Shown piece after piece: positions 22,668 through 39,012 of a stretch of 41,073 nt of DNA; position 1 is the first letter of the stretch, and every line of letters begins with the position of its first letter. The stretch is from positions 1 through 41,073 of the forward strand of contig MHCB01000009.1 in assembly GCA_001816455.1 (NCBI GenBank), written 5' to 3'. Below the pieces are notes generated by a model that saw only the letters and a program-made list of their open reading frames with translations, did no database searches and was not told the DNA's origin. The translations under genes and the position numbers were made by a program. Origin of the DNA: Candidatus Blackburnbacteria bacterium RIFCSPHIGHO2_12_FULL_44_25 (GTDB lineage Bacteria; Patescibacteriota; Microgenomatia; UBA8517; UBA10165).

Positions 22668-22894
22668 TGTCGTATCTCTTTCCCTTTTACTGCGTCAGCA
22701 GCAAGGTTCTTTCCTAAGGTTCTTACGCGCCTCAAGCATTTAGTACAAAATTGTTTCTTAACATGCTCCGTCCCTTCCATAACCCAAAAGGTATGAAGGT
22801 TTACTTTAAATACACGCCGGTTTCTTTTCCCGGAAAAAGTCACACGTCTCCCAACAATGTTTCCCTTTCCACAAGATGCACAAATTGATGCCAT
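22646..22894 (-). CDS. rpmB: 50S ribosomal protein L28
   Basis: MASICASCGKGNIVGRRVTFSGKRNRRVFKVNLHTFWVMEG. Confidence 0.92.
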   Translation of the reverse strand: MASICASCGKGNIVGRRVTFSGKRNRRVFKVNLHTFWVMEGTEHVKKQFCTKCLRRVRTLGKNLAADAVKGKEIRHQNVTPG

Positions 22895-30742: not shown

Positions 30743-30771
30743 TTGACTTTAAGACCAGAATATAGTACTAT
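30743..30771 (+). promoter_or_regulatory. promoter TTGACT-17-TACTAT
   Basis: Hexamers 30743-30748 and 30766-30771. Confidence 0.55.
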
Positions 30772-30789: not shown

Positions 30790-30819
30790 AGTGCACAGAT
30801 TGTAGTGCACTCCTTTTTT
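30790..30819 (+). terminator. intrinsic terminator about 15 nt after the predicted TSS
   Basis: AGTGCAC-agattgt-AGTGCACT then CCTTTTTT. Confidence 0.7.
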
Positions 30820-30920
30820 GCATATTTTTCAATACTTGTGCAAAAAAGCTTTACTGTTGCGTAGTTTCCTAAACGAAGCATACAGCAAGGTTCCGAAACG
30901 AAAGTTTCGGGTTCTTATCC
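30813..30920 (+). ncRNA. conserved structured RNA element, copy A
   Basis: CTTTTTTGCA/TGCAAAAAAG; CTGT-TGCGTA-GTTTC..GAAGC-AT-ACAG; CAAGGTTC-hairpin-GGTTCTTATCC; matches copy B with compensatory changes. Confidence 0.65.
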
Positions 30921-30957: not shown

Positions 30958-31290
30958 ATGGCAGCAACAGAGACAGGCAAACACACTACGATACGGTGCA
31001 CAGTGTGTGTGTGCGACGTCGACACGGCCACAGCCCCACACCGATCTCATCGCGAGACAGTACACTCCGGCGAAATAGATCTCTCGCTCACCGAATGCCC
31101 CAAATGCGGCCTAGTGCTCGTCGCAGAGGTGCTGCTACCAAAACAGGGTCCGCTTGTTCTTGTCGCCCACCCAAATACGGGCGTACACGCGGTACCAGTC
31201 GACTGGCTCGAGGGTTGGGAGGCCAACGGTTTCCGCCAAGCAACGCCCCTAGAAGCCCTCGGCTGGTATCAGGAGCGAAGTCCCGGCTAA
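30958..31290 (+). CDS. small cysteine-rich (zinc-ribbon-like) protein, orphan
   Basis: GGAAGGAG SD; CTVC and CPKC motifs; branched terminator at 31323-31382. Confidence 0.55.
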   Translation: MAATETGKHTTIRCTVCVCDVDTATAPHRSHRETVHSGEIDLSLTECPKCGLVLVAEVLLPKQGPLVLVAHPNTGVHAVPVDWLEGWEANGFRQATPLEALGWYQERSPG

Positions 31291-35902: not shown

Positions 35903-36835
35903 CTACACCTTCAACTTCCGAAGATACTCCCTAAACTCTTCCCCAATCTCCAGATGCCTCAATCCAAGTTCAACAACAGTCTTCATATACCCCAATTTTG
36001 ATCCACAATCATGATATTCAGCATTCAAAATTTCCTGTGCATAAACCTCTTTCCCTTGCGACAACATAACATTCAACCCATCAACATAGACCAACTCTTG
36101 TCCGTCCTTCAAACCTCCAGCAGCCCGTTTTAAAGCAGGAAAAATATCAGGGGTAAAAATAAAACCCGCCAAAGTTGCCAAATTCGAAGGCGCATTTCCA
36201 ATCCCTGGCTTCTCAATAATCTTATCTACCTTCATTAAGCCTCCCCCCAATTCCTCCCCGGAAGCATACCCGTACTTTAATGTGTCTTCCTCTTTATCTG
36301 TCCTCAAACCCCCCAAAATCGTCGCCCCAGTTTTCTCGTATGCGGAAAGTAGCTGCTCTGTACATGATAAAGGTTTCGCCGCCATAAGAACCTCGCCTTC
36401 GGCGAGAACCTTGTGATTCCCTTCGGTCGTCATAAACTCATCTCCCCAAAAAACAACAAACGGCTCGTCTCCAACAACAGCCTGGGCAGTCAAAATCGCG
36501 TCTCCGTTTCCTCGCGCTTCCTTTTGCCGAACATATATAAACTCAGCTAAGCTCGAGATTCTTCTCATCTCAGAAAGCTGCTTTTCTTTCCCCGCAGCAG
36601 CAAGTTTTGCCTCCAATTCAAAATGTGTGTCAAAGTGGTCCTCAATTGCCCTTTTATGCCAACCGGTAATCAGAATTATCTGCTCGATTCCAGCATCAAC
36701 CGCATTCTCAACAACATACTGAACAATCGGCTTATCAACCAAAGGCAACATCTCCTTAGGCATCGCCTTCGTTTGAGGCAAAAACCTCGTCCCAAACCCC
36801 GCCACCGGTATAACGGCTTTTCTGATTTTCTTCAT
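35903..36835 (-). CDS. galU: UTP-glucose-1-phosphate uridylyltransferase
   Basis: KAVIPVAGFGTRFLPQTKAMPKEMLPLVDKPIVQYVVENAVDAGIEQIILITG. Confidence 0.95.
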   Translation of the reverse strand: MKKIRKAVIPVAGFGTRFLPQTKAMPKEMLPLVDKPIVQYVVENAVDAGIEQIILITGWHKRAIEDHFDTHFELEAKLAAAGKEKQLSEMRRISSLAEFIYVRQKEARGNGDAILTAQAVVGDEPFVVFWGDEFMTTEGNHKVLAEGEVLMAAKPLSCTEQLLSAYEKTGATILGGLRTDKEEDTLKYGYASGEELGGGLMKVDKIIEKPGIGNAPSNLATLAGFIFTPDIFPALKRAAGGLKDGQELVYVDGLNVMLSQGKEVYAQEILNAEYHDCGSKLGYMKTVVELGLRHLEIGEEFREYLRKLKV

Positions 36836-36985
36836 GTCTTTTGAGTCTACTCTCCCTCAAACTATTTCTGCAACAGTTCCAATATCCAATGTCTAAGGTC
36901 GGCATCAAATACCCCATAACCTCCTCTACCCGCCTCTCCACCTCTACTCTCTACAACCCATAGCCTACCTACTTCCTACAGGTTA

Positions 36986-37058
36986 TTGACAACTCTAAAA
37001 TATACCTGGTATACTTACCAAGTTGATTGAAAAACGCCTCGGAACCCCGAGGTTTTTT
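36986..37058 (+). promoter_or_regulatory. promoter plus immediate terminator mini-unit 1
   Basis: TTGACA (36986)-18-TATACT (37010); CCTCGG-aac-CCCGAGG then TTTTTTTATTTTT. Confidence 0.65.
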
Positions 37059-37094
37059 TATTTTTCCGCCCAGCACCCCAATCCCCCATAGTAT

Positions 37095-37166
37095 TTGACT
37101 ATACCACAACGAAGTGGTATACTCTACCTTGTAACTTAAAACTCTGCCTTAAAAACAGGGTTTTTT
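37095..37166 (+). promoter_or_regulatory. promoter plus immediate terminator mini-unit 2
   Basis: TTGACT (37095)-17-TATACT (37118), spacer palindrome; AACTCTG...CAGGGTT then TTTTTT. Confidence 0.6.
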
Positions 37167-37391
37167 GCAAATCCCGCCCCTTAGGGCGGATGCACTTTTA
37201 TTAGAAGGAGAAAATACTCCTCTTTTTAAGAAGCCCGTAGCTTCGGGTGGCATATTTTTATGCTCCCTTGAGCTGCGGGTTTTACAGCGAGGAAACCCAA
37301 ATTCACCGCTCGCGCAATGACGCACGGGATGTGAAAGCCACCAAGCCTTCGGCTTGGCGTTCTCGCCAACAGTTCTTAGAGGAGGTTCGCG

Positions 37392-37484
37392 ATGCGAACT
37401 ACACGGACGGCAACCCTTGGCAAGATTGTGGCCTTTGACCTGAACACCGCCGGCGCCGGCCTGAGCTTCAGCGCGACCTGCTGA
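37392..37484 (+). CDS. 30-aa small protein MRTTRTATLGKIVAFDLNTAGAGLSFSATC
   Basis: AGAGGAGG SD then ttcgcg ATG; stop TGA 37482-37484. Below the ORF-track cutoff. Confidence 0.45.
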   Translation: MRTTRTATLGKIVAFDLNTAGAGLSFSATC

Positions 37485-37496
37485 CCACGGCCAGCC

Positions 37497-37570
37497 GCGG
37501 GGACACCTCTGGGAGGTGATCGGAGCCTAGCCAGGCTCGTCACCTTGGCCTCTGGCCGAGGCGTCCCCGC
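37497..37570 (+). ncRNA. cloverleaf-like four-stem structure, not a tRNA
   Basis: GCGGGGA/TCCCCGC; CACCTC-TGG-GAGGTG; GAGCCT-AGCC-AGGCTC; CCTTGGCC-TCT-GGCCGAGG. Confidence 0.55.
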
Positions 37571-37717
37571 TTCCTGGAATATCCCCCTCCTCTGGAGGGA
37601 ATCGCAGAGCGAAATCTCTGCAGAAAGGCCACATCATGAAGTGGGACATAGAGCTGACAACCTGACCGGCTAGCCGATCAGGAAAGCACCCCATTTTTTT
37701 CTCCCCTAAACCCAATC

Positions 37718-37788
37718 GGGCCGGTACGGCGCAAAGACGCGTGTCTCACAACACAACTCCTCGCGCACGACCGGCCCTTTTCTTTTTT
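37718..37788 (+). terminator. branched intrinsic terminator
   Basis: GGGCCGGT/ACCGGCCC with inner GCGC/GCGC, then TTTTCTTTTTT. Confidence 0.8.
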
Positions 37789-37891
37789 GCATAAACCACA
37801 CAATACTTGTGCAAAAAAGTTTCACAATTGCGTAGCTTCCCAGCGAAGCATATTGCAAGGTTCTCCGATTCCCAATCGGAGGTTCTTATCC
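37782..37891 (+). ncRNA. conserved structured RNA element, copy B
   Basis: CTTTTTTGCA/TGCAAAAAAG; CAAT-TGCGTA-GCTTC..GAAGC-AT-ATTG; CAAGGTTC-hairpin-GGTTCTTATCC. Confidence 0.65.
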
Positions 37892-37999
37892 TTCCAATCT
37901 CCAACTCCCTCTTGACTCCCTATTTCCATCAGTACTAAACTCATCTCAATCGTTCTTCTCTTTGAAGAAGCACTTTTCAAAACACATCTGCACTACACC

Positions 38000-38670
38000 C
38001 AGTAGCGCGCGCCGCATGAAAACCTGTTCGTGTGCCGCACGCTACTGGGTACTGAGGACCAGTTAGTAGTTTATCGGGCTGCAATACAGGGTTGCCATAA
38101 TATGGCTATCCGTTAGCAACACCAAATGGGCCCATGTCAACTTAAGGCTTTGCCAAGAGTTGCTAAGCCCAGGGCAGCAAGAAATAAACTATTCCTATCT
38201 CAGCCAGTGAAAGGGGGCCAATGGTAATGATCCGGCGGACTAAACATCCGATGTTGTGGAAATCCACCGGCTAAGAAGACCAGGAGGCGCCAAACCGCGC
38301 AGAAAAAGGCGATGGACCCGTGAGTCCGAAATCGCACACACAACTTCTGCGCGGCAAGGCGAATCCACGAACCCCGTCTTGCGGGAACCTCTGTCCTTCC
38401 TCCGAGGGACAAATCTCCCGCATCGCCCCGACTCGGCAGGGTGAACAACCGCCTTCATGCGGCCACCCTGCCGGGCTCGGGCTCGACGCACAGTGAGTAA
38501 AAGCGAGGTACCAAATGGTGCCTTGCAGAAAGATAGTGTCCTTATGACTGTGCAGACCGCGGCGCCTTTCCGCTTCACCTGACGGCAGCGAGTCGGGGAT
38601 GCGGGCAAATAGCCGCACCAGGGCCGGGGGTCAAGCTTTCTCGATTCAACTCGAGTCTGTCTTGCCCCCG
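38000..38670. ncRNA. large ornate structured RNA candidate, boundaries and strand uncertain
   Basis: Dense nested complementarities (see findings); no convincing ORF on either strand. Confidence 0.4.
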
Positions 38671-38715
38671 CGCCCGCCCTCATCCTTTTACAACTTCCTC
38701 CCTCCCTATTCCTAC

Positions 38716-38782
38716 TTGTCTCCCCCATATTTTTCCTATATAATACTTGACAGAGCTCACATTATAGTGAGCTTGTTTTTGT
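38716..38782 (+). promoter_or_regulatory. promoter with terminator starting at about +2 upstream of secE
   Basis: TTGTCT (38716)-17-TATAAT (38739); AGCTCAC-attata-GTGAGCT then TGTTTTT. Confidence 0.6.
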
Positions 38783-38808
38783 TAAATGGGGTATAATCTT
38801 AAACTGCC

Positions 38809-38988
38809 ATGAACCCGTTATCTTTTTTACAAGAAGCGTACATCGAGCTTAAAAAAGTAACCTGGCCAACCCGAGCCCAAACAATACAGGCAACAGTTCT
38901 TGTCGTTGTCGTATCCTTAGCCGTCGGAGCCTACGTCGGCAGCCTAGACTTACTTTTTACGAGCATACTAAACACATTACTAAAATAG
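38809..38988 (+). CDS. secE: preprotein translocase subunit SecE
   Basis: MNPLSFLQEAYIELKKVTWPTRAQTIQATVLVVVVSLAVGAYVGSLDLLFTSILNTLLK; precedes nusG. 59 aa, so absent from the ORF track. Confidence 0.93.
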   Translation: MNPLSFLQEAYIELKKVTWPTRAQTIQATVLVVVVSLAVGAYVGSLDLLFTSILNTLLK

Positions 38989-39012
38989 TCAATCTTACAC
39001 TCTCTTTAAACC

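Follow-up and report, generated by a model that had tools for sequence, protein, structure and literature searches.

What are the two related, foldable sequences, copy A and copy B, that lie on one contig of Candidatus Blackburnbacteria bacterium RIFCSPHIGHO2_12_FULL_44_25 (MHCB01000009.1)? The window analyzed is the whole stretch of 41,073 nucleotides from this contig. From its letters alone the two copies had been predicted to be a two-copy structured RNA of the riboswitch, attenuator or small RNA kind. The structural part of that interpretation is supported, the predicted function is not. Judged from sequence comparisons, copies A and B are probably members of a family of very short, non-autonomous insertion elements built from two adjacent hairpins.

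Fold and covariation of the copies in the window

Both predicted copies are present (Table 1), and a BLAST search with copy A recovers copy B at an E value of 3e-13 together with further copies in the same genome. The predicted folding of copies A and B is better than that of all 200 dinucleotide shuffles (z = -3.7 and -5.9, respectively). The reported covariation of the P2 stem is real. Over eight copies, including those of relatives, the outer stem is 100% paired, three of its four pairs are doubly changed, and the variants are CTGT/ACAG, CAAT/ATTG, CGAT/ATCG, CTTT/AAAG and GAAT/ATTC. The whole-structure covariation score for these eight copies is 0.201, compared with 0.076 ± 0.020 for shuffled alignments, and 0 of 500 shuffles scored as high. 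Conserved loops and feet combined with covarying stems indicate a fold that is selected or mechanistically required, and further homologs with covariation exist. No Rfam family reaches its gathering score within the element (the best sub-threshold E value is about 1), in agreement with the prediction that it belongs to no known class, and a scan of the window at gathering thresholds returned tRNAs only.

Two parts of the original prediction need revision. There are four cores in the window and 26 in the genome, so that "two-copy" was too low a count. The 10-bp inverted repeat TTTTTTGCA (P1) is indeed shared by copies A and B, and it recurs in a copy on contig C38 and in one copy of genome G002, but it belongs to only some copies in this genome family and is not a general part of the element.

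Table 1. Positions of the element copies and of a promoter-like sequence in the window.
Feature	Position	Strand	Remark
Copy A	30813-30920	+	present as described
Copy A, P1 hairpin CTTTTTTGCA...TGCAAAAAAG	30813..30848	+	lineage-specific 5' hairpin
Copy A, second (N) hairpin CTGT-TGCGTA-GTTTC...GAAGC-AT-ACAG	30854..30885	+	immediately 3' of TTTA
Copy A, core C-AAGGTTC-[CGAAACGAAAGTTTCG]-GGTTCTTA	30886..30917	+	
Copy B	37782-37891	+	present as described
Copy B, P1 hairpin	37782..37819	+	
Copy B, N hairpin CAAT-TGCGTA-GCTTC...GAAGC-AT-ATTG	37825..37855	+	
Copy B, core C-AAGGTTC-[TCCGATTCCCAATCGGA]-GGTTCTTA	37856..37888	+	
Third core	36385..36413	-	in frame within galU (35903-36835, minus strand)
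Fourth copy, N hairpin CTGCGTCAGCAG	22690..22701	+	3' of TTTTA
Fourth copy, core C-AAGGTTC-[TTTCCTAA]-GGTTCTTA	22702..22725	+	
Sigma-70-like promoter match TTGACT-17-TACTAT	30743..30771	+	5' of copy A; consensus match only

The interval between galU and nusG (36836-39012, approximately 2.2 kb) is without a convincing ORF and contains many inverted repeats, one of them a long hairpin (CACCCAGTAGCGCGCGCCGC...GCACGCTACTGGGT) near 37998-38058. The interval has no match to any Rfam family.

A dispersed family with constant feet and variable stems

BLAST searches with copy A or B return partial matches on many contigs of this 0.84-Mb genome and in four of five sampled genomes of other genera of the same family. 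What is constant across these matches is C-AAGGTTC-[hairpin]-GGTTCTTA, not P1 or P2. The exact core pattern AAGGTTC N4-30 GGTTCTTA was searched, with the reversed pattern as control. It occurs 26 times in this genome, 13 times per strand, and the control does not occur there. Relatives, including members of the same family, have 0 to 8 core matches each. Carriers are distributed patchily in the phylum, comprising 15 of 380 genomes with 1 to 25 copies (25, 19, 11, 6, 5, 4 and fewer); the control pattern was found in five of the same 380 genomes, with one match each. A stricter hairpin pattern, run against GTDB genomes, revealed at least 117 further stretches. The matches listed are from many lineages of Patescibacteria (Woese-, Neals-, Shapiro-, Davies- and Berkelbacteria and WWE3), from rumen and gut Clostridia, and from Desantisbacteria. 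Whole-genome copy counts reach 71, followed by 49; one Desantisbacteria genome has 40 copies and gut Clostridia have 1 to 14. The Desantisbacteria copies are spread over many contigs and so do not come from a stray contig.

Viral contigs contain 38 single matches to the general core pattern and none to the full P1 pattern, and several of the core matches resemble chance hits to codons of conserved phage proteins. These 38 matches were for this reason excluded from the final statistics, which pertain to 279 unique non-viral copies, and are still included in the 261 copies counted below for Y stems, target repeats and tRNA neighbors.

The unit reads YTA, N-hairpin, C, AAGGTTC, Y-hairpin, GGTTC, TTA, target, so that YTA stands at both ends. 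This order follows from counts in the 279 copies. C precedes AAGG in 272 of them, and T follows TTA in 213. With N' defined as the four bases 5' of the C that precedes AAGGTTC, a YTA followed by a perfect 4-bp partner of N' lies within 75 nt upstream in 139 copies, compared with a mean of 15.5 and a maximum of 27 when N' is taken from another copy. Cores are 21-44 bp and units about 40-110 bp long.

The feet AAGGTTC and GGTTCTTA are constant, and the Y stem and the outer N stem vary among copies and stay paired. There are 156 distinct Y inserts among 261 copies. Watson-Crick pairing in the Y stem is 90% and 81% at the first two positions, and GC, CG and TA are all common at the second. Opposed G-T and A-C occur 37 and 31 times in Y stems, respectively, an even balance that does not indicate which strand folds. 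The interior of the N hairpin is conserved within a lineage only. The N hairpin reads CTGT-TGCGTAG...GAAGCATA-ACAG in this genome. G002 has TTGCAAAGCAA and also TTACGAG...GAGTAA, the form seen in Clostridia; other Patescibacteria have AAGTTTGGATA... and ATTCAAGATTATAT..., and Desantisbacteria have GAC...CGACGTTTA. The conserved TGCGTA/AT interior of the present lineage may reflect a second role at the RNA level. Nearly identical N hairpins (TTACGAGC...GCGAGTAA) are found at locus L120 in the Patescibacteria genome G002 and at L195, L202 and L204 in Clostridia; this similarity across phyla suggests either transfer or a shared mover.

Units also form tandem arrays with a period of 35-70 nt: 36 nt in L107 (G000, contig C13), 39 in L106 (C11), 36 in L108 (C15), 35 in L112 (C35), 67 in L418 and 66 in L413. 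The Y hairpins inside one array are nearly identical, which indicates that arrays grow in place.

Probable insertion sites and genes with in-frame copies

Copies lie beside YTA, mostly before a T. The target is often repeated directly on either side of the copy, over a length of about 7 to more than 30 nt. In 22 of 261 copies the sequence that follows GGTTCTTA recurs upstream over 13 nt or more, compared with 4-5 at control offsets, and the upstream repeat starts mostly right after CTA or TTA. Many copies have no detectable target duplication. The last bases before the core are complementary to the target, as is evident statistically: N' and the first bases of the target form 673 pairs, compared with 469 ± 15 and a maximum of 516 in 1000 shuffles, and in the directly repeated subset 118 of 186 compared with a shuffled maximum of 79. 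In the full-length copies of this genome N' shows no match to the downstream target. The direct repeats and the complementarity of N' together imply, for many insertions, the layout YTA - T1 - filler - T1 (inverted, partial) - C - core - TTA - T1.

tRNA genes are preferred neighbors. One lies within 150 nt of 38 of the 261 copies, compared with 4.1% of positions drawn at random from those loci, and 23 of these 38 elements abut the 5' end of the tRNA gene, which is encoded on the opposite strand. Where a direct repeat is present, it duplicates the first bases of the tRNA up to the TA at about positions 8-9 (or in the D arm), and the tRNA remains intact. The two contigs of loci L148 and L277 carry the same tRNA-Ser insertion (T1 TGCGACCTCTCC). 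Their fillers have diverged and their Y hairpins differ, and the pair may serve to gauge the rate of stem turnover.

Two conserved protein genes carry in-frame insertions. The core in galU encodes the center of a 17-residue insertion, HKVLAEGEVLMAAKPLS, that is missing from the GalU of relatives. On contig 38, thrS contains a 32-residue in-frame insertion formed by two cores and bordered on both sides by a duplicated (Y)FDFD, and the thrS genes of G001 and G002 are uninterrupted, with GFYFDFDYSGKISE and GFYLDFDLNGKIQE. In-frame cores are also seen in other long ORFs of conserved proteins, namely in L271 (a tyrosine recombinase), L169 (an 855-residue tRNA-synthetase-like protein), L159 (an Fpg/MutM-like ORF), L300 and L198.

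These locations bear on the original reading of the element as a cis-regulatory or small RNA. The stable fold and its covariation fit that reading, as does the setting of copy A: a promoter match lies about 40 nt to its 5' side and a start codon about 40 nt to its 3' side. Given that predicted promoter (a consensus match only), copy A would be part of the leader of ORF 30958-31290. A riboswitch, attenuator or small RNA would be expected upstream of a single type of gene, in a constant orientation or at a single locus, and the copies show none of these. Their neighbors are unrelated genes with no common downstream gene, their orientations are evenly divided (13 and 13 in this genome), and they occur in tandem arrays, in frame within ORFs and against tRNA genes with duplicated targets. 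Copy B has no convincing ORF for more than 1 kb downstream on its own strand. The placement of the copies is the signature of insertion, and a structured regulatory RNA is extremely improbable.

A second possibility is that no dedicated enzyme is involved and that host polymerases create and amplify the units by replication slippage and template switching at hairpins. The tandem arrays of 35-70 nt and stems that diverge freely yet remain paired are what such a process would give, and so is the combination of a direct target repeat with an inverted target start, as in the copy between rpsD and rpoA (CTA-TTCCAGGTAAT-CCTGGAA). However, sequence recognition is needed to account for identical 15-base feet in different phyla and for 3' ends that fall precisely after TTA, and slippage does not fit so patchy a distribution, in which some genomes reach 71 copies and most have none. 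We consider this explanation quite improbable.

Candidate moving enzymes and known elements of similar form

The insertion element that we favor would need a mover. Neither an autonomous copy nor a consistently linked gene was found near the 117 loci listed, where only housekeeping genes occur. The copies may also be a MITE that shares its ends with an autonomous IS of the genome; no linked gene recurs near these 117 loci. This genome encodes six Y1 transposases of the REP-associated type (on contigs C5, C6, C10 and C21, and two on C38; ORFs of 152-244 amino acids), which is a high number for a genome of 0.84 Mb. The copies could accordingly be REP elements moved by resident Y1 (HUH) transposases, which would recognize a tetranucleotide beside a hairpin on single-stranded DNA, cut it and paste it. 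The single-strand hairpin logic fits, GTAG stands next to the stem in this lineage's N hairpin, and by our tally Y1 genes are present in most genomes with at least three copies and in 13 of 25 without copies (Fisher p = 0.026). On the other side, there is no Y1 gene in G076 (19 copies, 99% complete), G158 or G443, and none of 60 Y1 loci has a core within about 1.5 kb. GTAG is found within 60 nt upstream of 31 of 261 copies and CGTC of 14 of 261. To our knowledge direct target repeats are not a feature of REP elements. An origin as REP elements moved by Y1 is unlikely.

Two further candidates were set aside as movers along with Y1. Reverse transcriptase, which would act by target-primed insertion, is missing in most carriers, this genome and G076 among them, and IS110 (DEDD) recombinase is present in only one of 17 carrier genomes. 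Because Y1, reverse transcriptase and IS110 are each missing from some high-copy genomes, none of the three is named as the mover here.

For the favored insertion element, the features of the unit suggest the following sequence of events. A trans-acting, strand-nicking enzyme would recognize the folded single strand through its constant feet and would cut after TTA. Pairing of N' with the sequence after YTA would set or copy the target. Strand-displacement synthesis could then yield the direct repeat, and fold-back copying of the target could yield an inverted piece that ends exactly at the cut. Effects on RNA or proteins would be by-products. It is conceivable, and is offered tentatively, that this amounts to a new transposition strategy, in which a novel enzyme would insert a folded strand of 40-110 nt, recognized by its feet, beside YTA with a preference for the 5' ends of tRNA genes, the N foot serving as a short guide that pairs with the target or is rewritten from it, and direct and inverted target copies being left behind.

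Several known systems share features with this family. The mitochondrial double-hairpin and repetitive hairpin-forming elements (DHE/RHE) of fungi, algae and sponges, including Allomyces (PMC2800124), are likewise tens of bp long with two adjacent hairpins, have many divergent copies and optional presence, insert between genes, next to tRNAs and within genes, and have no linked enzyme. The present element differs from them in being bacterial, in its AAGGTTC/GGTTCTTA feet that are constant across phyla, in its YTA site and in its target-complementary stem. Flanking duplications were noted as lacking in the Allomyces elements (PMC2800124), whereas target repeats of 13 nt or longer occur here in the excess over controls given above. 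Rickettsia palindromic elements (RPE) are also palindromic and occur both in frame in unrelated protein genes and between genes, but they are about 150 bp long with a conserved peptide (PMC10969869); the present element is shorter, has variable stems, is read in several frames and is found in other phyla. GTAG/CGTC REP elements and their RAYT transposases (PMC3733652, PMC2817692) are similar in having short hairpins with constant tags at the foot that are dispersed and clustered. Here both feet are constant (AAGGTTC...GGTTCTTA), the copies do not flank Y1 genes and are found without them, and there are target repeats; with these feet and with the tags rare upstream, the copies are not members of the GTAG/CGTC REP class. 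TIGR stem-loop arrays of parasitic bacteria consist of tandem palindromic units, and some arrays of the present element have a similar period of about 36 nt. TIGR arrays lie beside a tas gene and have spacers between box C/D motifs (PMC12045711), whereas the present copies are mostly solitary and dispersed, many of them lie within genes or beside tRNAs, and pairing takes place between the variable parts of one copy. By this layout, and with no neighboring gene recurring near the 117 loci listed, a TIGR array was set aside.

The family is thus distinct. It resembles the mitochondrial DHE and, in coding genes, the RPE, and has the full definition of neither. Among open-licence papers on the motif, on palindromic elements in Patescibacteria/CPR and on tRNA-associated palindromes, none was found that describes this family. 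Short palindromic insertion elements are of a known sort, and we rate the target-pairing feature as unusual. Constant feet, variable paired stems and a target-complementary foot make the mode of insertion testable. Covariation-based searches for riboswitches in these genomes will pick up members of this family as false positives. That the feet are the same in three phyla implies either that distant bacteria have exchanged the element or that an unknown enzyme is widespread. Some very small Patescibacteria genomes have dozens of these copies of about 100 bases or less, also within essential genes, and through the copies within such genes the element adds new protein segments, as well as insertions beside tRNAs, to streamlined genomes.
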